A stretch of DNA of 64,000 nucleotides from Candidatus Barnesiella excrementigallinarum (GTDB lineage Bacteria > Bacteroidota > Bacteroidia > Bacteroidales > Barnesiellaceae): the NCBI GenBank assembly GCA_019114445.1, contig DXFL01000010.1:1-64000 (forward strand). Direction: 5' to 3'. The translations under genes and the position numbers were made by a program. A model generated the notes under the pieces. That model had not been told where the DNA came from, did not search any database, and was given only the letters and a program-made list of their open reading frames with translations. Positions 13,090 through 60,391 of the stretch are shown here, one piece after another (within the stretch, counting starts at the first letter, position 1; each line of letters opens with the position of its first letter).

Positions 13090-15297
13090 ATGAAAACATT
13101 CAAAAAAACGGTACTGACCATGGCGTTGCTGCTTGTTTCTGCGGGAAATCTCGCGGCAGAAAAAGTATGCGTGTCTACCCCGAACAACACTTTGTTGCTC
13201 CTTGCCGAAAAAGGGAGTGAATTGAAATTTGTATATTATGGGAATAAACTGTCGGGAGAGGATATGGAAAATATCTTTTATAACGAAAAGTATATGCCGG
13301 CCGCTTATCCCGTGTATGGCTTGTATTGTCAAGGCGAATCGGCGCTTGCCGTCAGACATGGCGATGGGAATATGACCCTTCAAATGGAGGTTTCGGAGGT
13401 GGAAAAAACTTCGGACGAGAACTCCGAGACTACGGTCATAAAGATGAAGGACAAGGTATTTCCTTTTTATATCAATGTGTATTACAAGGCATATATCGAT
13501 GCCGATGTCATAGAGACATGGACCGAGATTTTCCATGCCGAAAAGAAAAACGTGGAGTTGAACAATTTTGCTTCGGCTTATCTTCCTATCAGGCGGGGCG
13601 ATGTGTGGTTGTCGCATCTTTACGGTTCGTGGGCAAATGAGAGCCGGCTCATGCAAGAGCCGCTCGAAGCCGGCATGAAAGTGATAAAGAATAAAGATGG
13701 TGTGCGTAACTCGCATACAGCCCATGCCGAAGTGATGTTTTCGCTCGATGGTAAACCGCAGGAGAATTATGGAAGTGTGATAGGTGCAGCTCTTTGTTAT
13801 AGTGGTAATTATAAATTGAGAATCGATACCGACGATAGCGAGTATCACCATTTTTTTGCGGGGATAAACGAAGAGAATTCGATGTATTCGTTGCAAAAGA
13901 ACGAAGTATTTCAAACGCCCGAATTGGCTTTGACTTTCAGCGACGAAGGCCTTAGTGGGGCAAGCCGTAATTTCCATTCGTGGGCTCGGCTTCACAAGAT
14001 TGCACATGGCTCTACCCTCCGCAAAATACTGCTCAATAGTTGGGAAGGGGTATATTTCGATATAAATCAAGAGGGTATGGACCAAATGATGGCCGACATT
14101 GCATCGATGGGAGGAGAGTTGTTTGTAATGGACGACGGCTGGTTTGGCGGAAAATATCCTCGCAACAACGATTCGTCGTCGCTTGGCGATTGGGTGGTCG
14201 ACAGTCGAAAACTCCCGAATGGTATCGAAGGTTTGCTGGCCGATGCGGCTAAGCATAATATCAAATTCGGGATATGGCTCGAACCTGAGATGGCCAATAC
14301 TGCCAGTGAGTTGTTCGAGAAGCACCCCGAATGGGTGATAGAATCGGCTCAACGCGATTTGGTAACGGGCCGGGGCGGAACGCAAGTCGTACTCGATCTT
14401 GCCAACCCCGAAGTGCAGGATTTCATTTTTGACCTTGTAGATGGGCTGATGACAAAATATCCCGAGATAGACTATATCAAATGGGATGCCAATATGTCTA
14501 TCACGAATCATGGATCGAATTACCTCGATACATCGAGGCAAAGTCATCTGTATATCGAGTATCACCGAGGTTTCGAAAAGGTGTGCCAAAGGATACGTCA
14601 CAAGTATCCCGATTTGACCATTCAGGCCTGTGCCAGTGGCGGAGGCCGGGCTAACTATGGGGTTATGCCCTATTTCGACGAGTTTTGGGTAAGCGACAAT
14701 ACCGATGCCCTACAACGGATTTATATGCAGTGGGGTGCCTCTTATTTCTTCCCCGCGATAGCGATGGCATCGCATATCAGCGCAGCGCCCAACCACCAGA
14801 CATTCCGATCTATTCCGCTTAAATACCGAATCGATGTAGCCATGAGCGGACGGCTCGGTATGGAAATACAGCCCAAAAATATGACCGACGAAGAAAAGAA
14901 TCTTTGCCGAAAAGCCATTGCAGAATATAAAGAGATAAGGCCCGTAGTCCAGTTGGGCGACATATACCGTTTGATTTCGCCTTACGACAACTTGGGCGTT
15001 GCTTCGTTGATGTATATCTCCCGGGATAAAACGGAGGCTGTGTTCTATTGGTGGAAAACCGAGCATTTTGTAAATCAACATCTCCCCAGAGTGAAAATGG
15101 CCGGTCTTGATCCCGATAAAACATATACGGTGAGGGAGTTGAATAGGATAGATAACGAGCCGTTGAGTTTCGAGGGTAAATCGTTTAGTGGCCGTTATCT
15201 GATGAATACAGGGTTGGAAATACCCTATAATCACATTGTAGACTATCATAAGAAAAACGATTATTCGAGCCGTGTGTTATATCTCGAAGTCAAATAG
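13090..15297 (+). CDS. GH36 alpha-galactosidase, exported
   Basis: I use the ATG at 13090 (735 residues), which starts a clean signal peptide (MKTFKKT to NLAAE). The upstream in-frame ATG at 13048 would place the promoter inside the gene. The N-terminal beta-supersandwich is followed by a TIM barrel with VMDDGWFG, WLEPEM, the nucleophile Asp466 in YIKWDAN and the acid/base Asp536 in WVSDNTDA, as in GH36 (MelA/RafA type). It releases alpha-linked galactose, here probably the side groups of galactomannan or galactoglucomannan. It is transcribed away from the mannanase operon from a shared 350-bp region. Confidence 0.93.
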   Translation: MKTFKKTVLTMALLLVSAGNLAAEKVCVSTPNNTLLLLAEKGSELKFVYYGNKLSGEDMENIFYNEKYMPAAYPVYGLYCQGESALAVRHGDGNMTLQMEVSEVEKTSDENSETTVIKMKDKVFPFYINVYYKAYIDADVIETWTEIFHAEKKNVELNNFASAYLPIRRGDVWLSHLYGSWANESRLMQEPLEAGMKVIKNKDGVRNSHTAHAEVMFSLDGKPQENYGSVIGAALCYSGNYKLRIDTDDSEYHHFFAGINEENSMYSLQKNEVFQTPELALTFSDEGLSGASRNFHSWARLHKIAHGSTLRKILLNSWEGVYFDINQEGMDQMMADIASMGGELFVMDDGWFGGKYPRNNDSSSLGDWVVDSRKLPNGIEGLLADAAKHNIKFGIWLEPEMANTASELFEKHPEWVIESAQRDLVTGRGGTQVVLDLANPEVQDFIFDLVDGLMTKYPEIDYIKWDANMSITNHGSNYLDTSRQSHLYIEYHRGFEKVCQRIRHKYPDLTIQACASGGGRANYGVMPYFDEFWVSDNTDALQRIYMQWGASYFFPAIAMASHISAAPNHQTFRSIPLKYRIDVAMSGRLGMEIQPKNMTDEEKNLCRKAIAEYKEIRPVVQLGDIYRLISPYDNLGVASLMYISRDKTEAVFYWWKTEHFVNQHLPRVKMAGLDPDKTYTVRELNRIDNEPLSFEGKSFSGRYLMNTGLEIPYNHIVDYHKKNDYSSRVLYLEVK

Positions 15298-23823: not shown

Positions 23824-24972
23824 TCAATAGCCAAAACGTTGAGCGGCCTGTCGCATCGACTCGATGATTTTTACCCCAAAGGGGCAACGGGTTTCACAAG
23901 CGCCGCAGGCGATACATTCCGAGGCGTGGTGGTCGAGTGCCTTGTAATGCTCCCGCACGGTTTCGGGAATCGCTCCTTGTGCAGCCGCCAAATTATAGAA
24001 TTTATTCACCGAGGCAATGTCTATTTTCGATGTGCAGGGAGCACAGTGCCCGCAATACATACAGTGGCCTTGCCACGAAAAACGGTCGAGCCGGCTCATT
24101 ACTTGGGAATAGTCGCGTTCTTGGGGTGTCGCTTGGCACCAAGCTACGGCCTGAGCTATTTCGTCGCGGCTTTTGCAGCCCACCATGACGGCAGCCACGC
24201 CGGGTCGGGTGAGGGCATATTCGAGGGCTTGCACTGGGGTAAAGGCGCAACCGAAAGGTGAGTTCGTTCGATCCAGTAGATCACCTCCGCCAAAGACCTT
24301 CATCACGTCGATGGCTACCCCTTCGCGCGCGCACAAGGCGTAGAATTGTTCGCGTGCCGGGTCGATGTTGTGCAAGGCACCGGTGTAGCTCGTCTGGTCG
24401 AAAAGGGCGTTGACATCTTCGTTGGGAGGGAGCAGGTCGTAGCAAGGGTTGATCGAGAAAAGCACAACGTCGATGAGCCCGGTTTTTACCGCCATACTCG
24501 CCACCACGGGGTTGTGGCTGCTCATGCCGATGTGCCGAATCTTCCCTTCGCTTTTCAGTCGTTGGGCAATCTCGATGATTTCGTGGTCGAATACGGTGTG
24601 GAAATCGCTTTCGGCGTCGACATAGTGAATCATACCTATATCCACATAATCGGTTTTCAGTTGGTTGAGCAGGGCTTCGAACGATTCGACCGTCTTTTGC
24701 GGGTCGCGGGTACGCAGGTATTGCCCGTTTTCCCACGTGGTACATAAGTGGCCTTGTATGACGAAATTTTCCCGACGCCCCTCCAATGCGGCTCCGATAT
24801 GAGAACGGAGCTCTGGATTCGACGAATAGATATCGACAAAGTTGATACCCTGTTCGATGGCAAAGTCAAAATCGGCTTTCACCTCTTGGGCGCTTTTGTT
24901 CATAAACCCTTCGCAGCCGAGGGCGATGGCGCTCACTTGTATCCCGGTGCGGCCTAATGTGCGGTATTCCAT
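23824..24972 (-). CDS. Aldo/keto reductase with C-terminal [4Fe-4S] ferredoxin domain
   Basis: The 382-residue protein starts with the aldo/keto reductase fold (RTLGRTGIQVSAIALG, then DYVDIGMIHYVD and HIGMSSHNP) and ends with a ferredoxin-like domain with cysteines in CMYCGHCAPC (304-313) and CIACGACETRCP (353-364). The usual catalytic DxxxxYG region reads DIYSSNPELRS, so the classical Tyr-based NADPH chemistry may be altered. No signal peptide is seen, so it should be cytoplasmic. It is the last gene of a three-gene redox operon, eight bases after the previous gene. Confidence 0.85.
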   Translation of the reverse strand: MEYRTLGRTGIQVSAIALGCEGFMNKSAQEVKADFDFAIEQGINFVDIYSSNPELRSHIGAALEGRRENFVIQGHLCTTWENGQYLRTRDPQKTVESFEALLNQLKTDYVDIGMIHYVDAESDFHTVFDHEIIEIAQRLKSEGKIRHIGMSSHNPVVASMAVKTGLIDVVLFSINPCYDLLPPNEDVNALFDQTSYTGALHNIDPAREQFYALCAREGVAIDVMKVFGGGDLLDRTNSPFGCAFTPVQALEYALTRPGVAAVMVGCKSRDEIAQAVAWCQATPQERDYSQVMSRLDRFSWQGHCMYCGHCAPCTSKIDIASVNKFYNLAAAQGAIPETVREHYKALDHHASECIACGACETRCPFGVKIIESMRQAAQRFGY

Positions 24973-24980
24973 AAACAGAC

Positions 24981-26360
24981 TTAAAATTCTTTACCTTGTT
25001 TCAACTCTTCGACAAAGCGGTCTATCCGTTGCAACTCTTTGGGAATGTCGATACTTTGCGGGCAGTGGGGCACGCACTGATGGCAGCCGATACAGTGGTT
25101 GGCTTGGCGCAATTTAGGCACACTGCGGTCGTACCCGATGAGGAATGCCCGGCGGGCCTTCCGGTAATTCTCGTCCTGCGACGAGGCGGGTACATTCCCT
25201 TCGTTGATACATTTGTTGTAATGGAGCAAGATACCCGGAATATCCAGTCCGTAGGGACAGGGCATACAATATTTGCAGTCGTTGCAGGGTATGGTGGGAT
25301 AGCGTAACATGAGTTGGGCTGTCTCTTCCAAAAAGTCTTTCTCGTCGTTGGTGAGCGGTTGTAGCGGCGAGTAGGTGCGCAGATTGTCTTGCAAGTGCTC
25401 CATGTAGGTCATTCCGCTCAGTACGGTGAGTACGTTGGGTAATGAGCCGGCAAAGCGGAACGCCCACGAGGCTACGCTGGCTTCGGGGGTGCGTTGTTTC
25501 AATTTAGCGGCAATGTGGTCGTGTACGTTCGACAGCCGGCCGCCCAGCAACGGCTCCATGATAATGGCGGGAATGTTGCGTTTGGTCAGTTCGGCGTAGA
25601 GATAATCGGCATTGACATTCCGTCCCGATGCGTGTAGCCAGTCTACGTAGTTGAGTTGTATTTGTACGAAATCCCAGTGTACCGATTCGTGCATGGCCAG
25701 TACTTCGTCGAACACCTCTTGGGTGCCGTGGAACGAAAATCCCAAATTGCGAATGCGTCCGGCTTTGCGCTCCTCCAAAAGGAAATCGATCATGCCATTA
25801 TCGATGTATCGCGCCCGGAAGGTTTCGATACCGCCATTGCCGATGGAGTGGAGCAGATAGTAGTCGATGTAATCGACTTGCAAGTCGTCGAACGACTTGC
25901 GGTACATGGCGATGGAGTTCTCGCGCGTGTAGTTGGAGAAGTTCGATAACTTGGTGGCGATAAAATATTTGTCGCGGGGATAGCGCTTCAAGGCTATGCC
26001 GGTCGATTTTTCCGACCCGCCTTGCACGTAAACGGGGGAGGTGTCGAAATAGTTTACCCCGTGGGCAATGGCATAATCGACCAACTCGTTGACAGCTTCT
26101 TGGTCGATACTGTCGTGTGTGCCGTCGGGCGAGGGTATGAGCGGCAGGCGCATCATGCCGTAGCCGAGCAGCGAAACTTGGTCGTGGTTGGCGGGATGGG
26201 TACGGTAGGTCATTTGACCGGTGGGCACATCGGTGGTTGCCGTGTAAGCCTCTTCCTGTTTATTTTTGCATCCGGGGAGCACAGTGGCCGAAGCGAGAGT
26301 TGCTCCGCCTAACACTTTCAGGAAATTCCGTCTATCGATTTTATTATGTTCGTTTTTCAT
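24981..26360 (-). CDS. Tat-exported aldo/keto reductase with [4Fe-4S] domain
   Basis: The 459-residue protein begins with a twin-arginine signal (DRRNFLKVLGG) and a lipobox-like LPGC, so it is probably exported folded, carrying its cofactors. The aldo/keto reductase barrel (LLGYGMMRLP, YFDTSPVY, FIATKLS, DYYLLHS) is followed by a ferredoxin-like end with CNDCKYCMPCP and CIGCHQCVPHCP. It sits between the membrane polyferredoxin and a cytoplasmic homologue. An exported reductase fed electrons through iron-sulfur clusters is the simplest reading; its substrate is unknown. Confidence 0.86.
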   Translation of the reverse strand: MKNEHNKIDRRNFLKVLGGATLASATVLPGCKNKQEEAYTATTDVPTGQMTYRTHPANHDQVSLLGYGMMRLPLIPSPDGTHDSIDQEAVNELVDYAIAHGVNYFDTSPVYVQGGSEKSTGIALKRYPRDKYFIATKLSNFSNYTRENSIAMYRKSFDDLQVDYIDYYLLHSIGNGGIETFRARYIDNGMIDFLLEERKAGRIRNLGFSFHGTQEVFDEVLAMHESVHWDFVQIQLNYVDWLHASGRNVNADYLYAELTKRNIPAIIMEPLLGGRLSNVHDHIAAKLKQRTPEASVASWAFRFAGSLPNVLTVLSGMTYMEHLQDNLRTYSPLQPLTNDEKDFLEETAQLMLRYPTIPCNDCKYCMPCPYGLDIPGILLHYNKCINEGNVPASSQDENYRKARRAFLIGYDRSVPKLRQANHCIGCHQCVPHCPQSIDIPKELQRIDRFVEELKQGKEF

Positions 26361-26378: not shown

Positions 26379-27866
26379 TTAGATGATACGGTGGTTTTTG
26401 TGCCCTTCTACATAGATGGCGCTGAATGGTCGTGCCGGGCACAGGTTCTCGCAGCTTCCGCAACCGATACACCGTTCGACATTGATGACCGGTATTTGGG
26501 GCGAATCGGTCACATCGGGATCCGAGGGAACCATCTGAATGGCTCCGGTAGGACAGTGGCGGGCGCAGTTTCCGCAACTCACACCGTCGGTTACAGGTAG
26601 ACAGTTTTTCTTGATCCATACGGCATGGCCGATTTGGATACTCGATTTCTCGGCTAGGGAGGTCAGATGAATGGCGTCTGTGGGACAAACCTCGGCACAT
26701 TTCGCACATTCCGGGCGGCAATAACCCCGTTCGTAAGACATTTCGGGCTGCATGAAGGTTGCCGGGTTACTCGACGGGCGCAACACTTGATTGGGACATA
26801 CCGATACGCACAGTTGGCAAGCGGTGCAGTGTTGTGCCATATTGGCCGCACTCAACGATCCCGGAGGGGTGATGGGTGTGGCGCGTTTGGGAATTTTTTT
26901 GTCTTCGATGATAGCCAGTCCGCCATCTACTTTTTTCTCTTGGGCTTTCAGCAGGGCGGTGGTGGCCAGCAGTCCGGTGAGCGAGAGGAACGCTCTTCGC
27001 GAATGGTTACCCCCCTTTTCGTCGGGAGCCAAACAGGCCTGTTTGGCTTTATGCCGGGGGATATAGCGTATGGCACCCTGAGTGCATTTTTCGATACAGT
27101 CCATACATACCACGCAGCGGCTGTAATCGATGGCGTGATTTTTAGCGTCGATACACGAGGCTTTGCAATTACGGGCACACGATTGGCACCCGTTGCATCG
27201 GGTCGTATCGATAACGGGACGAAATAGCGAGAAGCGCGACAGCACTCCCAAAACCGTACCTACCGGGCAAATCGTGTTGCAATAGGTGCGTCCGTTCCGC
27301 CAAGCCAGTATGAAGAGGACGACAAAGGTGGCTATGGCGACAATGAGGGTGGAGGTTCCTTTTATCCATACCTCGGTGGAATAGAATGCATAGCTGTCGG
27401 CCCGTTCGGCAAAGTAGGCGAGCAGATTGTTTCCCCATTGGTAGAGCGGGGCGAACAGGGTGGAGGCCATACGTCCGTAGGCGCTGTATGGGGCGATGAG
27501 GGCGGCCCAAGAGGCAAATCCTGCCAACAAGGCGGCGACGAAAAGCACCAATACACTGTATCGCAGCCACGAGAGCGCGGGCGAATAGCGGAACCGGTTT
27601 TTCTTGCGTTTGCCCGCTATCCACGAGATGATGTCTTGGAATACGCCGAGCGGACAGATGACCGAGCAATAGACGCGCCCGAAGAGCAGGGTGAGGGCTA
27701 CGAGCAGGACAACGACGCCTACATTCAGAGCCAATACGGCCGGGAGAAACTGTATTTTGGCAAGCCACCCGAACCATGTGTGCAAACTTCCGGTGAAGTC
27801 GAGGAATAATAATGTAATGAGAGTAAAACAGATAGCAGCAGCGGCTATCCTCGTTTTCCGTAACAT
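26379..27866 (-). CDS. NapH-like membrane polyferredoxin fused to a NapG-like ferredoxin
   Basis: This is a 495-residue protein. Residues 1-200 have about five membrane segments and the two NapH/NosR-type motifs YCSVICPLG (67-75) and YCNTICPVG (195-203). Next come two [4Fe-4S] motifs (CNGCQSCARNC and CVVCMDCIEKC, 224-261). At 289-296 a twin-arginine motif, SRRAFLSL, precedes a hydrophobic stretch, as at the start of a free NapG. The rest holds four more [4Fe-4S] motifs (348-476). It probably moves electrons from the quinone pool or cytoplasm across the membrane to the Tat-exported reductase encoded next. First gene of its operon, with a leader of about 220 bases. Confidence 0.86.
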   Translation of the reverse strand: MLRKTRIAAAAICFTLITLLFLDFTGSLHTWFGWLAKIQFLPAVLALNVGVVVLLVALTLLFGRVYCSVICPLGVFQDIISWIAGKRKKNRFRYSPALSWLRYSVLVLFVAALLAGFASWAALIAPYSAYGRMASTLFAPLYQWGNNLLAYFAERADSYAFYSTEVWIKGTSTLIVAIATFVVLFILAWRNGRTYCNTICPVGTVLGVLSRFSLFRPVIDTTRCNGCQSCARNCKASCIDAKNHAIDYSRCVVCMDCIEKCTQGAIRYIPRHKAKQACLAPDEKGGNHSRRAFLSLTGLLATTALLKAQEKKVDGGLAIIEDKKIPKRATPITPPGSLSAANMAQHCTACQLCVSVCPNQVLRPSSNPATFMQPEMSYERGYCRPECAKCAEVCPTDAIHLTSLAEKSSIQIGHAVWIKKNCLPVTDGVSCGNCARHCPTGAIQMVPSDPDVTDSPQIPVINVERCIGCGSCENLCPARPFSAIYVEGHKNHRII

Positions 27867-28092: not shown

Positions 28093-28160
28093 CAAAGATA
28101 GGGGACGCCTGCACTTTGCGAAAGAGACAAATTACAGATAGTAATACCCGTTTTACAGAT
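28093..28160 (-). promoter_or_regulatory. Promoter and direct-repeat operator of the redox operon
   Basis: The minus strand carries TATCTTTG (28100-28093), a -7 box without a proper -33. Upstream lie two TTACAGAT repeats (plus-strand positions 28132-28139 and 28153-28160), exactly 21 bp apart and starting 31 bp beyond the -7 box. An identical arrangement lies upstream of the flavodoxin gene. Two same-way half-sites two helical turns apart, next to a missing -33, is the layout of an AraC-type activator site. The Nudix gene on the other side could also be affected. Confidence 0.7.
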
Positions 28161-28219
28161 TATGATTTATTAGGGAGAGTTTATACTTTGAGACCGGGAG
28201 TGTGCGTTTATATATAAAT

Positions 28220-28861
28220 ATGTTTGTTATGAATATTCAATCGAAAGAATCTCTTGCGTGGCTCGATTGGGCTAAAGAATTGCAGTTTATTGCTCAGGTA
28301 GGATTGACCTATTCTAAAGACCCGTTTGACTTGGAACGTTTCCAGCGCATACGGGAAATTTCGGCCGAAATTATGAATAGATATACGGGGCTTCCTTATG
28401 AGCAGGTGTATGATCTGTTTTGTAGTGAAACGGGATTTCAGACGCCTAAGCTCGATACTCGGGCGGTTATTTTCGAGGGAGACAAGATTCTGCTGGTTGA
28501 GGAGCGCGATGGTACGTGGTCGCTGCCCGGAGGGTGGGTTGATGTGAACCAAACCCTCAAAACCAATACCGAGAAAGAAGTTTTCGAGGAGGCTGGCCTC
28601 GAGGTGGAGGTGGTGCGCCTGTTGGCTCTGCAAGACCGCAATTTACACAATAGGCCGCCTTATGCTTATAATGTGTGCAAGGCCTTTTTCCTTTGCAGGG
28701 TTAAGCAAGGCTCTTTTCGCCCCAATACCGAGACTTTGGGCAGTGCCTATTTTGCTTTGAACGAATTGCCTCTACTCTCAGAAGACAAGGTTACTCGTGA
28801 GCAGATAGCCTTATGTTTCGAAGCTGCCAAAAGCGAGAATTGGGTGGTGCCTTTTGATTGA
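28220..28861 (+). CDS. Nudix hydrolase with N-terminal helical domain (ADP-ribose pyrophosphatase-like)
   Basis: The 214-residue protein (ATG at 28220; 28229 is also possible) has an N-terminal helical region like Pfam Nudix_N (SLAWLDWAKELQFIAQ) and a Nudix domain from about residue 65. The Nudix box reads GGWVDVNQTLKTNTEKEVFE followed by EAGL: the usual first Glu is Gln and the usual Arg is Lys, but the metal-binding EVFEE core is kept. Related proteins hydrolyse ADP-ribose or other nucleotide sugars. It is a single gene, divergent from the redox operon, and the direct-repeat site lies just upstream of it as well. Confidence 0.85.
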   Translation: MFVMNIQSKESLAWLDWAKELQFIAQVGLTYSKDPFDLERFQRIREISAEIMNRYTGLPYEQVYDLFCSETGFQTPKLDTRAVIFEGDKILLVEERDGTWSLPGGWVDVNQTLKTNTEKEVFEEAGLEVEVVRLLALQDRNLHNRPPYAYNVCKAFFLCRVKQGSFRPNTETLGSAYFALNELPLLSEDKVTREQIALCFEAAKSENWVVPFD

Positions 28862-29200
28862 ATGTTGTTTCTCCGGTTAAATAGAAAATGAATCGCAAGT
28901 CTTTTGCAGACATTTTTATGTGTTTGTAAATGAGGTTTATGAGTAGTTATAAGACTATTTTTTTTATGAAAAAATAGAGTTAAAAAAGTATTTTTTCGTA
29001 TCTTTGCACCCGGATGGGGTCATTTAGCCCCACGTATTTGATGAAACGATATACAGCAAATCGCATTTATTTTTTTCGCACAGGAGTATTGACAAAACTC
29101 GATTCTTTTCACCAATGGGGAATGGCTAATTCCGATTAATAAATAGCGTGTCAATACAGTTTTAAGCTAATCCTAATTTTTTAATCATAATTTATTACGA
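28862..29200 (+). other. Leader region of the efflux operon
   Basis: TATCTTTG (28999-29006) is a good -7 box, with a weak -33. The transcript would begin with a small hairpin (TGGGG/CCCCA, about 29015-29032), then a possible 32-codon reading frame (29041-29139) and complementary arms GTATTGACA (29086-29094) and TGTCAATAC (29149-29157). The layout suggests control of the pump by a leader, although nothing proves translation. Confidence 0.5.
29041..29139 (+). CDS. Possible leader peptide of the efflux operon
   Basis: A 32-codon frame starts at an ATG about 28 bases after the predicted transcription start and ends at TAA. The peptide (MKRYTANRIYFFRTG start, MANSD end) shows no known motif. One arm of the 9-bp inverted repeat lies inside it, so its translation could change RNA folding upstream of tolC. 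It may be a chance frame. Confidence 0.25.
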   Translation: MKRYTANRIYFFRTGVLTKLDSFHQWGMANSD

Positions 29201-30520
29201 ATGAACAAATTTAATTTGTCCATAACGGTATTGTGTGTATCGTTATGTGTAGAAGGCGTGTGTGCGCAGGATACGATTCGGCAAACAATTACTTTGGACG
29301 AGATATTCACATTGGCCGATCGCAACAGCAAATCGTTACGTCCTTCGGTTACGGCAATCGACGAAGCCCGCGAAGCGGTGAGGATTGTCAAAAACGACCG
29401 CTTGCCCGACATCGAGGCTTCTCTCTCGTTTAGTTATTTGGGCGACGGTACATTGATGGAGCGTGATTTCACGCAGGTAGAACGGGCTCCCATGCCTCAC
29501 TTCGGTAACAATTTCGCTTTGGAAGTTTCGCAAATCATCTATTCGGGCGGAGCAGTTCCCAACAGCATTGCAATAGCCCATTTGCAAGAGGAGATAGCTC
29601 GACTCAACTGGAAGAAAGATCGCAACAAAATACATTTTTTGTTGGCCGGATACTATTTTGACCTCTTCAAACAGCAGAATATCTTGAAAGTGTATGAGCG
29701 AAATATCGAACAGACCAAACAGCTATTGAAAGATATTCGCGCCAAACAGGGGGAGGGGTTGGCGTTGAAAAACGACATTACCCGGTATGAATTGCTCCTT
29801 TCCGATTTGGAGTTTACCGTGGTGCAGTTGAAAAATACGATGGATATTCTCAACCGGAATCTTACCACACAACTGGGATTGGACGAGACGGTACAGATTC
29901 TCCCCGACACGACCCTCCTCTCGCGGGTGCTCCCGCTGGGCGACGAGCCTTATTGGCAGGGCGAGGCTGTTGAAAATTCGCCCGAACTGAAACAGTTGGA
30001 ACTGGCGGTACAGCAGACCAAGCATCAGGATAAAATCGTGAATTCCGACCGCCTGCCCCATGTGGCTTTCATCGCCGGGAACCATTTCGACGGTCCCATC
30101 ACCATCGAAGTCCCGCCCATCAATAAAAACTTCAATTACTGGTATGTAGGGGTGGGCGTGAGCTACAATTTAGCTTCGCTCTACAAAACCAACAAATCGG
30201 CCAGTCGCAGTAAACTGACTATCCGCCGCACACAGGAGCAGTATGCCGATGCCCGTGAGCAAACCGAGTTGGCGGTGCAGGCGGCTTATGTGCGTTATAT
30301 CGAGGCTTACGAACAACTCAATACCCGTGAGAAAGGGGTGGAGCTGGCCGCCCAAAACTATGCGGTGATAGCCAATCGGTATAAAAACGAACTTTCGCTC
30401 ATTACCGATATGCTCGATGCCAGCAACGCCAAACTGTCGGCCGAGGTACAGTTGGCCAATGCCCAAATCGACATCGCTTTTAATTATTACAAACTTCTTT
30501 ATTTAACAGGTACATTATAA
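29201..30520 (+). CDS. TolC-family outer-membrane efflux protein
   Basis: The 439-residue protein has a signal peptide (about 1-22, ending VCAQ) and the repeated helical OEP domains of TolC, with long coiled-coil stretches (KNDITRYELLLSDLEFTVVQLK region) and a duplicated architecture. It forms the outer-membrane exit duct of a tripartite pump. It is the first of three genes with the HlyD adaptor and the MFS pump following at a 14-base gap and a 17-base overlap, so the three products should work together. Confidence 0.92.
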   Translation: MNKFNLSITVLCVSLCVEGVCAQDTIRQTITLDEIFTLADRNSKSLRPSVTAIDEAREAVRIVKNDRLPDIEASLSFSYLGDGTLMERDFTQVERAPMPHFGNNFALEVSQIIYSGGAVPNSIAIAHLQEEIARLNWKKDRNKIHFLLAGYYFDLFKQQNILKVYERNIEQTKQLLKDIRAKQGEGLALKNDITRYELLLSDLEFTVVQLKNTMDILNRNLTTQLGLDETVQILPDTTLLSRVLPLGDEPYWQGEAVENSPELKQLELAVQQTKHQDKIVNSDRLPHVAFIAGNHFDGPITIEVPPINKNFNYWYVGVGVSYNLASLYKTNKSASRSKLTIRRTQEQYADAREQTELAVQAAYVRYIEAYEQLNTREKGVELAAQNYAVIANRYKNELSLITDMLDASNAKLSAEVQLANAQIDIAFNYYKLLYLTGTL

Positions 30521-30534
30521 AATTGGTTACAGTC

Positions 30535-31590
30535 ATGAATAAGAGAACTCGAAAAATAGTGTTTAACGTAATTGTCATTACCTTGTTGGTAATAGGTTTC
30601 GTGTGGGTGTGTTCCCGGTTTGTCCATTTGGGACGGGTTGAATATACCGACAATGCACAAGTGCGTCAGCAGATTGTCCCGGTGAACAGCCGGGTACAGG
30701 GATTTATCAAGAAAATTTATTTCGATGAATATCAGTTTGTACACAAAGGCGATACCTTGTTGGTTATTGAGGACACGGAGTTCCGCCTGCGGGTGGCTCA
30801 GGCCGAGGCCGACTATGCGAATGCGCTGGCCGGCCGCACGGCTATGGGTACGGCAGTTTCGACGGCTTACAACAATTTGGCGGTATCCGATGCCGGTATC
30901 GAAGAGGTGGAGGTACAGTTGAAGAATGCCGAGAAAGATTATGCCCGCTATGCCAAATTGCTCACCGAAGAGGCGGTTACCCAACAGCAATACGATGCGG
31001 TAAAAACCAACTACGATGCATTGAAGGCCAAATACGAGATGCTCGTGCGCCAAAGACGTTCGGCGGCTTTGGTAAAGGAGGAGCAGTCGCAACGGCTTTC
31101 GCAGAACGAGGCTGCTGTTGCCGTGGCTTCGGCTGCTTTGGAACTGGCTCGATTGAATCTCTCGTATACTGTGGTATTGGCTCCTTGCGACGGGGTGACT
31201 TCGCGCAAGACCATACAGGAGGGGCAACTCATACAGCCGGGGCAAACGCTGGTGTTGGTGGTCGATGAAAATGACAAGTGGGTGGTGGCCAACTACAAGG
31301 AGACACAAACGACCCACATCGCCGAAGGTATGGAGGTGAAAATGAAAATCGATGCCATTCCCGGGGTGGTTTACTACGGTCGGGTGCAGGCTATCTCGAA
31401 GGCTACGGGGGCACAATATGCCGTTGTGCCGCAAGACAATTCGGCCGGTAATTTTGTGAAGGTAGAACAACGTGTCCCGGTGAAGATTGTCTTCTCGGCC
31501 GAGAATGCGCCCGACAATATGGCTCGGTTGCGTGCCGGGTTGAACGTGGAGTGTGAGGTAAACTATCGCGATTATGACGCCGCTCGATGA
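30535..31590 (+). CDS. HlyD/EmrA-family periplasmic adaptor
   Basis: I use the ATG at 30535 (351 residues). A single membrane segment (about 12-30) is followed by a lipoyl-like half (VEYTDNAQVRQQIVPVNSRVQGFI), a helical hairpin with coiled-coil character, the second lipoyl half (VLAPCDGVTSRKTIQEGQ) and a beta-barrel domain. This is the EmrA type, which links an MFS pump in the inner membrane to TolC. Its end overlaps the pump gene by 17 bases. Confidence 0.92.
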   Translation: MNKRTRKIVFNVIVITLLVIGFVWVCSRFVHLGRVEYTDNAQVRQQIVPVNSRVQGFIKKIYFDEYQFVHKGDTLLVIEDTEFRLRVAQAEADYANALAGRTAMGTAVSTAYNNLAVSDAGIEEVEVQLKNAEKDYARYAKLLTEEAVTQQQYDAVKTNYDALKAKYEMLVRQRRSAALVKEEQSQRLSQNEAAVAVASAALELARLNLSYTVVLAPCDGVTSRKTIQEGQLIQPGQTLVLVVDENDKWVVANYKETQTTHIAEGMEVKMKIDAIPGVVYYGRVQAISKATGAQYAVVPQDNSAGNFVKVEQRVPVKIVFSAENAPDNMARLRAGLNVECEVNYRDYDAAR

Positions 31591-33175
31591 TTTGATGCGA
31601 AAGGTCCCCGCTTTCAAAGAGTGGGTACCCATGTGGGCGAGGGTGGGATTCTTTTATTCCTGCATTGTGATCTTTCAGTGTTCGGGGGGTATCTATCTCT
31701 CGGCGTTGAGCGAGATGATGGGCGCCACCGCTTTGATGCAAGAAGATATTCTCATGGCGGGATATGCTTCGTTCGTGGGGATTACGATGATTTTCCCCAT
31801 TCTGTTCCGCCTCAAATTCCGCTTGCCGTCGCGCACCATTCTCCCGGTGGTGGCTATCGGGCTCATTGCGGGAAACCTCATCACCATGAGTACCGACAAC
31901 CTGCCGGTATTGACGGTTACCTGTTTTGCGACCGGGGTATTGCGTATGTGGGGTACGTTTGAATGTTTCTCGTCGATACAGTTGCGTATCACGCCCACCC
32001 GTAATTTCGCCGTCTTCTTTCCGGTGATCTACTTCACGGTATTCGGGTGCATACAGTTGTCGGGGTTGGCCACCGCCTATCTCTCCTATTTTTACAGTTG
32101 GCACTATATGCACTATTTGGCGGTGGCAATGTTGCTGATGGTGATTGGGTTGTCCCGATGGTTATTGCGGCCGTTTTATCTGCGCCCGCCCTTGCCGTTG
32201 TATGGCATAGATTGGTTGGGGGCTATTCTTTGGAGTGTGGTGTTGCTGTTGATAGCTTTTGTCTTTAATTATGGCGACTATTACGATTGGTTCGATTCGC
32301 CCTATATTCGCTTGGCGTTGGTTTGTGCAGGGGTGTTCCTGTTTTTGAGTTTGCAACGTATGTGGCATATTCGGCACTCTTATATCGAAACCGAGACGTT
32401 TAAGTATCGTCACTTTGTTACAGTGATGTTCCTGTTTTTCGCCCTGAATTGCCTGTCGGCCACTTCGACGGTGTTGCAAGGCGCTTTTACAGGGGGAATA
32501 CTTCATTACGATTCGCTTAATGCCATTTCGTTGAATTTACCCGGATTACTGGGGGTGGTAGTGGGCGCTTTTCTATCTTGGCTTTTCTTGGCCCGTTGGC
32601 AAATGAGTTACAAGGTGGTTACCTTTATAGGATTTGTTTTCATGGTTCTGTATCAATTTGTCATGTACTTTTTGATTTCTCCCGAAATGAATATCGAACG
32701 CTTGTATTTGCCTCTGATCTTGAAGAATGCCGGGAATGTGATGATTTATGTGGTACTGACGACTTATCTGTCGCAGATTGTACCCTTCAAACATTTTTTT
32801 CAGGCTCTTTGCGCTGTGGGATTTGTGCGCGAGGGAGTGGGCGGCCCCATTGCTTCGGCTTTGGTTACGCGAATCTTCAAAATCACCTATCAATCGAATT
32901 ACTACACGTTGGGGGGTGAGCTGGATGCCCTTAATCCCATGACGGGCCATTTGTCTTTCCCGACCTATTTCGGGGAGTTGCAGCGGCAGGCGATGTTGGT
33001 ATCGATTAAGGAGGTATTCGGGTATGCTGTGCTCTTTGGTATTTTGTTATTGCTTTTTATTCTGATAACTCGATATACCCGTGTTGTCCATCGTATCAAG
33101 TTATTCAGGGTTCCGGTGGTGGGACGTCTCTTTGCGATTAATCTCTCTCAGGAACGATTGGAAGATACCGTTTAA
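31574..33175 (+). CDS. MFS multidrug efflux pump (EmrB/DHA2-like)
   Basis: This 533-residue protein has about 14 hydrophobic segments, the number typical of the DHA2 (14-TM) drug:proton antiporters. The gene overlaps the EmrA-like adaptor gene and ends the operon. DHA2 motif C (around the GGPIASALV segment) can be guessed but motif A is weak. The pump would expel drugs, bile compounds or fatty acids through the adaptor and TolC. Substrate unknown. Confidence 0.85.
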   Translation: MTPLDDLMRKVPAFKEWVPMWARVGFFYSCIVIFQCSGGIYLSALSEMMGATALMQEDILMAGYASFVGITMIFPILFRLKFRLPSRTILPVVAIGLIAGNLITMSTDNLPVLTVTCFATGVLRMWGTFECFSSIQLRITPTRNFAVFFPVIYFTVFGCIQLSGLATAYLSYFYSWHYMHYLAVAMLLMVIGLSRWLLRPFYLRPPLPLYGIDWLGAILWSVVLLLIAFVFNYGDYYDWFDSPYIRLALVCAGVFLFLSLQRMWHIRHSYIETETFKYRHFVTVMFLFFALNCLSATSTVLQGAFTGGILHYDSLNAISLNLPGLLGVVVGAFLSWLFLARWQMSYKVVTFIGFVFMVLYQFVMYFLISPEMNIERLYLPLILKNAGNVMIYVVLTTYLSQIVPFKHFFQALCAVGFVREGVGGPIASALVTRIFKITYQSNYYTLGGELDALNPMTGHLSFPTYFGELQRQAMLVSIKEVFGYAVLFGILLLLFILITRYTRVVHRIKLFRVPVVGRLFAINLSQERLEDTV

Positions 33176-33176
33176 T

Positions 33177-33215
33177 AAAAAACCACAGCTCGCCGCCAGC
33201 GAGCTGTGGTTTTTT
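33177..33215. terminator. Bidirectional terminator
   Basis: A 17-bp perfect stem (33177-33193 with 33199-33215) with a 5-base loop has six A residues on one side and six T on the other, so it can end transcription from both the efflux operon and the flavodoxin gene. Confidence 0.95.
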
Positions 33216-33262
33216 ATTGGGATATCGGGGAGAAGCAACAGATTGATAAAAGAATTCAGCAA

Positions 33263-33814
33263 TTATTCCAAATTTAGTTTTTTCAGCCATTTGTCAATGT
33301 CGGGCCGGCAGTCGTGGGCATAGCTGTCGCGAATGCTGAGCCCGTCGGAAAATGTGGCGTTGGGGCATAATTTTTTCATGTCGGCGATAGCATGGCCGAA
33401 TCGGCCTCCGCCGTGGGTCATAAAGGGAACGATAGTTTTACCGGCAAAATTGTAACTCTCCATGAAGGTGGCCACGGGAGGTGCTATGGTACTCCACCAG
33501 TTGGGGGAGCCGATGAAAATGACATCGTACGAATCGAAGTCGGTCACCCGGTTTTTCAGTGCAGGGCGGTGTGCCGCATGGATTTCTTGCTTGGCCACAT
33601 CGAGGAGCGAATTGTATTCGGTCGGGTAGCTCTTTTGCGGGACAATTTCGAAGAGGTCGCCACCGGTGGCTTGGGCAATCTCTTCGGCTACGGCACGGGT
33701 GTTCCCACTGTGAGAGAAGTAGGCTACAAGTATTTTTCCCCCTTTCCCCCGGTTTTGGGCAGGGACGGCAATACAGGTAAACATGAGCATGGCTAAAACA
33801 ATTTTGTGAATCAT
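33263..33814 (-). CDS. Exported flavodoxin
   Basis: The 183-residue protein (ATG at 33814) starts with a signal peptide (MIHKIVLAMLMFTCIAVPAQ) followed by a flavodoxin fold: the FMN phosphate loop is AYFSHSGNTRAVAEE and a second cofactor loop is GSPNWWSTIAPPV. It looks like the flavodoxin_4 family. Most flavodoxins are cytoplasmic, and this one appears to be exported. Its promoter has the same direct-repeat operator as the redox operon at 23.8-27.9 kb, so the two are probably co-regulated and may share an electron path. Confidence 0.88.
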   Translation of the reverse strand: MIHKIVLAMLMFTCIAVPAQNRGKGGKILVAYFSHSGNTRAVAEEIAQATGGDLFEIVPQKSYPTEYNSLLDVAKQEIHAAHRPALKNRVTDFDSYDVIFIGSPNWWSTIAPPVATFMESYNFAGKTIVPFMTHGGGRFGHAIADMKKLCPNATFSDGLSIRDSYAHDCRPDIDKWLKKLNLE

Positions 33815-33849
33815 AAACTTCAAAATTTTTGGGTGTGAATTTTATGCAA

Positions 33850-33917
33850 CAAAATTACAATCGCCGTTTGTTTGTAACTGTATATCGATTACAGATAGAT
33901 ATACCCTTTTTACAGAT
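33850..33917 (-). promoter_or_regulatory. Promoter and direct-repeat operator of the flavodoxin gene
   Basis: The minus strand reads TAATTTTG (33857-33850) as the -7 box, with no -33. TTACAGAT occurs at 33889-33896 and 33910-33917 on the plus strand, 21 bp apart, beginning 31 bp beyond the -7 box. Spacing and much of the sequence between repeats equal those at 28093-28160. Confidence 0.7.
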
Positions 33918-59947: not shown

Positions 59948-60391
59948 ATGGCTAAAGAAATTGCTGGACAAATCAAATTACAGATTAAAGGTGGTGCAGC
60001 AAACCCCTCTCCTCCCGTAGGACCTGCATTAGGTTCCAAGGGTATAAACATCATGGAGTTTTGCAAGCAATTCAATGCCCGTACCCAAGACAAAGCCGGT
60101 AAAGTGTTGCCGGTTGTAATTACCTATTACAGCGATAAGTCGTTCGACTTTATCGTTAAAACACCTCCTGTTGCGATACAGGTGTTGGAAGTTGCCAAAG
60201 TAAAAGGCGGCTCGGCCGAACCCAATCGTAAAAAAGTAGGTGAAATCACTTGGGAACAGGTAAAAGCAATCGCCGAGGACAAAATGGTCGATTTGAACTG
60301 TTTTACCATAGAATCGGCGATGAAAATGGTTGCTGGTACAGCGAGAAGTATGGGTATCACCGTAAAAGGGGAATTCCCGGTAAATAACTAA
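59948..60391 (+). CDS. rplK: 50S ribosomal protein L11
   Basis: The 147-residue protein matches uL11 ([34 protein letters not shown]). It is part of the GTPase centre of the large subunit. Confidence 0.97.

Follow-up and report, generated by a model that had tools for sequence, protein, structure and literature searches.

In a 64,000-nucleotide stretch of Candidatus Barnesiella excrementigallinarum (contig DXFL01000010.1, positions 1 to 64,000; hereafter the window), two pairs of direct repeats lie upstream of a redox operon and of a flavodoxin gene. We consider it highly probable that both elements serve as operators for a single AraC-family regulator, likely the protein encoded at 14,098-15,036 on contig C28 of the same genome, which would control a small redox regulon by class II activation. 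The source genome (G000) comprises 2,611,671 bases in 30 contigs and is 93.6% complete, with the window on contig C9.

A first-pass annotation of the window had claimed that identical tandem repeats precede the two redox promoters, that each -7 box ends 31 bp from the first repeat and that the bases between the repeats are mostly shared, and all of this proved correct. The repeat TTACAGAT occurs on the plus strand at 28132, 28153, 33889 and 33910, with an additional unpaired copy at 59978. On the coding (minus) strand, both sites read ATCTGTAA-N13-ATCTGTAA-N31-TAnnTTTG. Operator 1, upstream of the redox operon, has a 29-bp core at 28132..28160 (ATCTGTAA-AACG-GGTA-TTACT-ATCTGTAA, minus strand) and a promoter-proximal half-site that extends to 28124; the -7 box of the operon, TATCTTTG, is at 28093..28100, exactly 31 bp away. 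Operator 2, upstream of the flavodoxin gene, has its 29-bp core at 33889..33917 (ATCTGTAA-AAAG-GGTA-TATCT-ATCTGTAA, minus strand), a proximal half-site extending to 33881 and, again at exactly 31 bp, the -7 box TAATTTTG at 33850..33857. Ten of the 13 positions between the repeats are identical in the two sites. A scan of the whole 2.61 Mb genome for many copies at unrelated places found the exact pair TTACAGAT-N13-TTACAGAT only at 28132-28160 and 33889-33917. With up to 3 mismatches there were 28 places, the other 26 all carrying 2-3 mismatches, and the reversed-pattern control gave 24.

Close relatives were checked for loss of the repeats, and both sites proved to be kept while spacer and flanks drift. 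Our genus set consisted of nine genomes, that of the window and eight relatives placed in Barnesiella by contig matches (G003:C15 with Barnesiella sp. An22, G006:C8 with an uncultured Barnesiella). The polyferredoxin gene that heads the redox operon was present in all nine and had an upstream site in eight, always 31 bp from TAnnTTTG. The redox operon of G006 (L122:5860-7010, G006:C8) lies behind a pair of flavodoxin and carboxymuconolactone-decarboxylase (CMD) genes that carries the site. Six of the nine genomes have a flavodoxin orthologue with 66% identity or more, and all six carry the site upstream, likewise 31 bp from the -7 box; an FMN-reductase gene sits between site and orthologue in G002. 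At L118:4235-4302 (G004:C25), the flavodoxin promoter retains its operator and -7 box with no flavodoxin gene following, and a multidrug transporter gene ends just beyond; this site is apparently a relic after gene loss. Ungapped, operator-anchored alignments were made of eight redox sites and of seven flavodoxin sites, the latter including the G004 relic. Invariant columns made up 24/37 of the operator and 7/8 of the -7 box at the redox sites, and 28/37 and 6/8 at the flavodoxin sites. Between operator and box, 0/23 (redox) and 1/23 (flavodoxin) spacer columns were invariant, and 0/40 upstream columns in both alignments.

The half-site is longer than the eight bases of the repeat and takes the form ATCnGTAA-N4-box. 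In exact sites from other genomes, the upstream half has GGTA as its box, and the half nearer the promoter has mostly TnTA or GnTA; the TA of this proximal box, which lay outside the search pattern, was present in 109 of 118 unique exact sites among the matches listed. The proximal box is TATA in operator 2 and TCTC instead of TnTA in operator 1. The half-site period is exactly 21 bp, and the two boxes of each half-site are one helical turn apart, as in an AraC-type tandem operator. At two loci (L343:5869-5918 and L113:8306-8355), three successive ATCnGTAA-like repeats follow each other in 21-bp steps and perhaps represent three half-sites.

The absence of a -33 element, also pointed out in the first-pass annotation, was borne out in the window, and none of the 118 unique exact sites listed from other genomes had TTTG at a spacer of 19-23 bp from the -7 box. 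Outside Bacteroidales, a missing -33 element is on its own a weak argument. We also examined 25 sites in the eight other genus genomes that matched with up to 2 mismatches and had not been selected for a promoter. An exact TAnnTTTG stood at 31 bp in 17 of these and at 32 bp in one; the other seven, some of them inside genes, had none. The proximal half-site lies over the -33 place with a near-fixed 31-bp gap to the -7 box, which is the arrangement of a class II AraC site.

To follow the element beyond the genus, the full 24-letter form was searched with up to 3 mismatches in 393 genomes of the order. It occurred at 143 places in 68 genomes, and the reversed control gave a single match. The genome and order-level scans reject chance as the source of the agreement, as had been claimed. 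An exact scan over a collection of 84,980 species returned at least 118 stretches with at least 121 sites. Among the matches listed, 116 of 118 stretches were Bacteroidota by title (mostly Bacteroidales and Flavobacteriaceae, with a few others), and the two remaining titles were a metagenome bin labelled Ruminococcus flavefaciens and an uncultured bacterium. The contig of the former bin that carries the exact element (L287) perhaps has a wrong label or is a stray contig. In six of 86 order-level stretches (L192, L198, L237, L254, L260 and L263), one of the first two genes behind the site is NapH-like, and the site at the window's redox operon is therefore probably old.

The element is linked to one subfamily of AraC proteins. 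Within the genus, an AraC gene is divergent to the site at the flavodoxin or FMN reductase gene in G002, G006 and G007, and to the site at the CMD/cupin gene in G001, G003, G004 and G008. Outside it, Parabacteroides distasonis strain NM39_I3 (L300) shows the sequence AraC gene, element, flavodoxin-like gene. Our script called the longest open reading frame (ORF), which was sometimes an antisense shadow, as happened in L122 for the G006 regulator and in G001 and G003 for their CMD/cupin genes; the G006 regulator was instead seen in L311 and the two CMD/cupin genes by tblastn. A profile of the subfamily was built from 12 site-divergent AraC proteins and paralogues, and at most six candidates were scored per genome. 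It detected the subfamily in 96 of the 393 order genomes. Site and regulator occurred together in 60 genomes, the site only in eight, the regulator only in 36 and neither in 289 (Fisher P ∼2e-36; 1.3e-33 without the five own-genus genomes; these values treat genomes as independent and are a guide only). A listed subfamily gene stood at most 400 bp away from at least 44 of the 143 order-level sites, divergently at 40 of them, and from at least 46 of the 121 exact sites among the matches listed, divergently at 42.

We also ran the search in reverse: 30 regulator genes were located by their proteins, and an operator with up to 3/18 mismatches was sought within 450 bp upstream of each. Such an operator was present at 27 of the 30 genes, facing away in 26, compared with 0/30 in the reversed-sequence control. 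These operators mostly start 94-109 bp ahead of the matched gene start, and two of the three misses carry a 4-mismatch site.

The proteins themselves have the features of the AraC/XylS family, namely a C-terminal DNA-binding domain of ∼100 amino acids with two helix-turn-helix (HTH) units and an N-terminal cupin-like sensor/dimerisation domain. HTH_18 scored above cut-off in all six AraC proteins scanned, and sequence matches in the PDB were the DNA-binding domains of SoxS, AraC and MarA. The predicted model of the G007 orthologue matched 3oio and others; among the structure matches listed for it, AraC-type entries came first and weaker sigma-factor and other entries below. Subfamily genes also occur as close pairs (L127, L121 and L343), and in the L127 pair the second recognition helix is of the usual form in one protein but not in its partner. 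At L258:1501-2312 (G357), a site has a subfamily AraC gene on one side and an RteC-like gene on the other; the RteC-like family (PF09357) is known from mobile elements of Bacteroides.

The window has no AraC gene, since none of the 12 HTH_18 matches of its genome is on contig C9; this is consistent with the first-pass statement that the window holds no regulator gene. The genome has two subfamily members, both on C28. The candidate regulator (14,098-15,036) has 312 amino acids, or 298 from an inner ATG, and its paralogue (C28:11,701-12,582) has 303. Between the candidate and a divergent CMD/cupin gene lies a 3-mismatch site with TAATTTTG at 31 bp. The second recognition helix is QYPQHMSRM in the candidate and PTHRGFCSL in the paralogue. 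A YP[QH]H helix form was found in 40 of 46 site-adjacent proteins; five of the other six were not caught by the search expression and one differs. We preferred the candidate over its paralogue because its second recognition helix has this usual form, and it is most likely the regulator of both window sites.

Both window operators are upstream of minus-strand genes. Operator 1 precedes a three-gene redox set: a NapH-like membrane polyferredoxin (26379..27866), for which NapH models match below their curated cut-offs; an aldo-keto reductase with a 4Fe-4S domain and an N-terminal, twin-arginine-like RRNFLK stretch (24981..26360); and a second aldo-keto reductase with a C-terminal 4Fe-4S domain (23824..24972). 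Operator 2 precedes a flavodoxin (Flavodoxin_4) with a signal-like N-terminal stretch (33263..33823), which may start at the ATG at 33814. Behind the exact sites (at least 121), the first class was CMD/cupin in 20 cases, aldo-keto reductase in 14, SnoaL-like in 13, flavodoxin in nine and alpha/beta hydrolase in seven. DUF3737, hexapeptide transferase and FMN reductase followed with three each, NapH-like, DUF362 and ABM with two each, and iron alcohol dehydrogenase, AraC and amidohydrolase with one each. The reference set of downstream proteins was partly chosen from those behind order-level sites, so these counts are descriptive and do not test for enrichment. At five Flavobacteriaceae-type loci (L275, L279, L286, L329 and L351), a protein of ∼730-745 amino acids with a signal-like N-terminus is behind the site.

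The divergent neighbour of operator 1 is a Nudix hydrolase gene (Nudix_N and NUDIX; 28229..28861, plus strand). Its position just beyond the site was described correctly in the first-pass annotation; the gene is not constant in this arrangement, since several ORFs intervene between Nudix gene and site in G002, and its membership in the regulon is unsupported. Between the operators (29201-33175), TolC-HlyD-EmrB-like multidrug efflux genes lie on the other strand, faced by neither site.

Taken together, these data suggest how the promoters may work. Two monomers, or a dimer, would bind the two direct half-sites 21 bp apart, and the two HTH units of one protein would read ATCnGTAA and a box ∼10 bp on, GGTA in the upstream half-site and TnTA in the proximal one. 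Since the proximal half is at the -33 place and its distance from the -7 box is fixed at 31 bp, the protein, once bound, most likely recruits RNA polymerase in place of the -33 element that is missing. The predicted targets, i.e. the NapH-like/aldo-keto reductase operon, the flavodoxin and the C28 CMD/cupin gene, would form a small regulon for redox functions or electrophile detoxification. The first-pass annotation had proposed a shared AraC-type activator. The shared AraC-type protein is supported by the tandem geometry, the conservation, the co-occurrence with the subfamily, the divergent placement and the reverse search; activation rather than repression is the likely mode and, like binding, the choice among paralogues and the signal, is what we infer from sequence.

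Several observations weigh against this account. No site at threshold was found in 36 of the 96 regulator genomes, and the eight genomes with a site and without a regulator each have a single one, with 3 mismatches in seven and 2 in the other. Among the matches listed, the 400 bp around a site contain no listed subfamily gene for 99 of 143 order-level sites and for 75 of 121 exact ones, the loci being short; in the exact set, 26 of 121 downstream genes were unclassed, and at 14 sites no ORF began within 500 bp. The redox operon of G006 has no site of its own. In the window genome, the site adjoining the candidate regulator is degenerate (3/18 mismatches), and the G002 and G007 regulators beside the flavodoxin site are 56-59% identical to the candidate. 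Subfamily proteins away from sites also have the YP[QH]H form in 4/9 and a YP form in 6/9.

The mode of control and the identity of the protein are where alternatives have most room. A protein on the -33 place could also block polymerase, and AraC itself both represses and activates. We nevertheless think it improbable that the same AraC protein represses, or toggles between repression and activation, at both promoters: TTTG is absent from the -33 place in all 118 exact sites among the matches listed and the gap is near-fixed at 31 bp, which suits a protein that helps polymerase. There is likewise a small chance that the paralogue at C28:11,701-12,582, or both paralogues, control the two sites. 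It belongs to the subfamily and to the same cluster, but its PTHRGFCSL helix is unlike that of most site-adjacent proteins, and the C28 site directly adjoins the candidate rather than the paralogue.

It is very unlikely that a regulator of another kind (a response regulator, an extracytoplasmic function sigma factor or a MarR/TetR protein) acts at the sites, with the AraC genes as mere neighbours. Most sites are not beside a listed AraC gene and some response regulators also use direct repeats; against this, the repeats are direct and not inverted, each half-site has two boxes separated by one helical turn, 40/143 and 42/121 sites (among the matches listed) are in the divergent gap of a single AraC subfamily, and the reverse search gave 27/30 compared with 0/30. 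Finally, the close likeness of the two window sites might reflect chance or a recently copied promoter without regulatory meaning. We give this next to no weight, because both sites are separately conserved in relatives, with drifting flanks, and the stretches between proximal half-site and -7 box are dissimilar.

On a larger scale, we tentatively propose, as one possibility, a phylum-wide system for electrophile or redox stress. One AraC subfamily, with several paralogues in some genomes, would use one common operator 31 bp from the -7 box; the paralogues would share targets and be interchangeable, and would switch on flavodoxins, 4Fe-4S aldo-keto reductases, the NapH-like donor, CMD/cupin proteins, alcohol dehydrogenases and esterases. 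In the window genome, an unlinked regulator would seemingly have taken the place of the flavodoxin-linked regulator present in G002, G006 and G007. To our knowledge, few operators have been defined for Bacteroidota transcription factors outside sugar use. Our analysis adds to the original observation the conservation, a probable regulator and its locus, the second half-site box and the spread through much of Bacteroidota. It offers an operator-regulator pair that is precise and open to testing and that ranges from gut Bacteroidales to Flavobacteriaceae. It also brings the NapH-like polyferredoxin and its 4Fe-4S aldo-keto reductases, the flavodoxins and the CMD/cupin proteins, whose roles are uncertain, together in one probable regulon. 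A phylum rule is suggested as well, by which an AraC protein 31 bp from TAnnTTTG substitutes for a missing -33 element.

We found no literature on the operator or its regulator, which is weak evidence of absence, as some queries were narrow, titles and abstract openings were covered and subscription journals were thinly represented. The excerpt of PMC10434189 held nothing usable on a link with iron starvation. An AraC-family protein of Bacteroides fragilis, reg (BF9343_3162), has been tied to surviving DNA damage and metronidazole in excerpts of two articles (PMC5028390, PMC11300592). Compared by description, the likeness lies in its being a Bacteroides AraC protein with a stress phenotype, for which the excerpts cite Casanueva 2008.

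A further comparison is with YqhC of E. coli, which excerpts of two articles describe as an AraC-type activator of yqhD and dkgA in the response to glyoxal and furfural, with aldehyde and aldo-keto reductases as targets (PMC8249747, PMC5297802). YqhC and our subfamily are both AraC-type regulators divergent from genes that they control or would control, with aldo-keto reductases among the known or predicted targets, and an iron alcohol dehydrogenase adjoins the element in some relatives (G004, L205 and L243). From the targets and this likeness, the regulon may serve in aldehyde, quinone or other redox stress. YqhC is reported with a single target, in contrast to the several here, and the excerpted text on YqhC in PMC8464067 offered no consensus for comparison. 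The YqhC domain AraC_N (PF06719) was absent from all nine genus genomes and, of 14 controls, was present in two, E. coli and T. maritima; the best match to the element in 4 kb around E. coli yqhC-yqhD had 7/18 mismatches. YqhC itself was therefore rejected as the regulator.

The subfamily also shares a double-HTH DNA-binding domain with the SoxS/MarA/Rob class, whose targets are redox or stress genes. SoxS and MarA have no N-terminal sensor domain and bind a single asymmetric site, in contrast to the two tandem half-sites and the RhaR/AraC-like N-terminal domain found here. A parallel in geometry is E. coli AraC at araI1-araI2 of araBAD, where two direct half-sites are arranged so that the proximal one adjoins or overlaps the -35 place. 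Like araI, the window sites have direct half-sites with a 21-bp period and a proximal half at the corresponding promoter position, and, judging by the folds of the predicted model, the proteins appear alike in combining a regulatory domain with a C-terminal double HTH. The half-site sequence differs from that of araI, and the promoters are of the Bacteroidota -33/-7 class instead of the sigma-70 class. The two also differ in what they control, with sugar catabolism for AraC and unlinked redox targets for the regulator proposed here.

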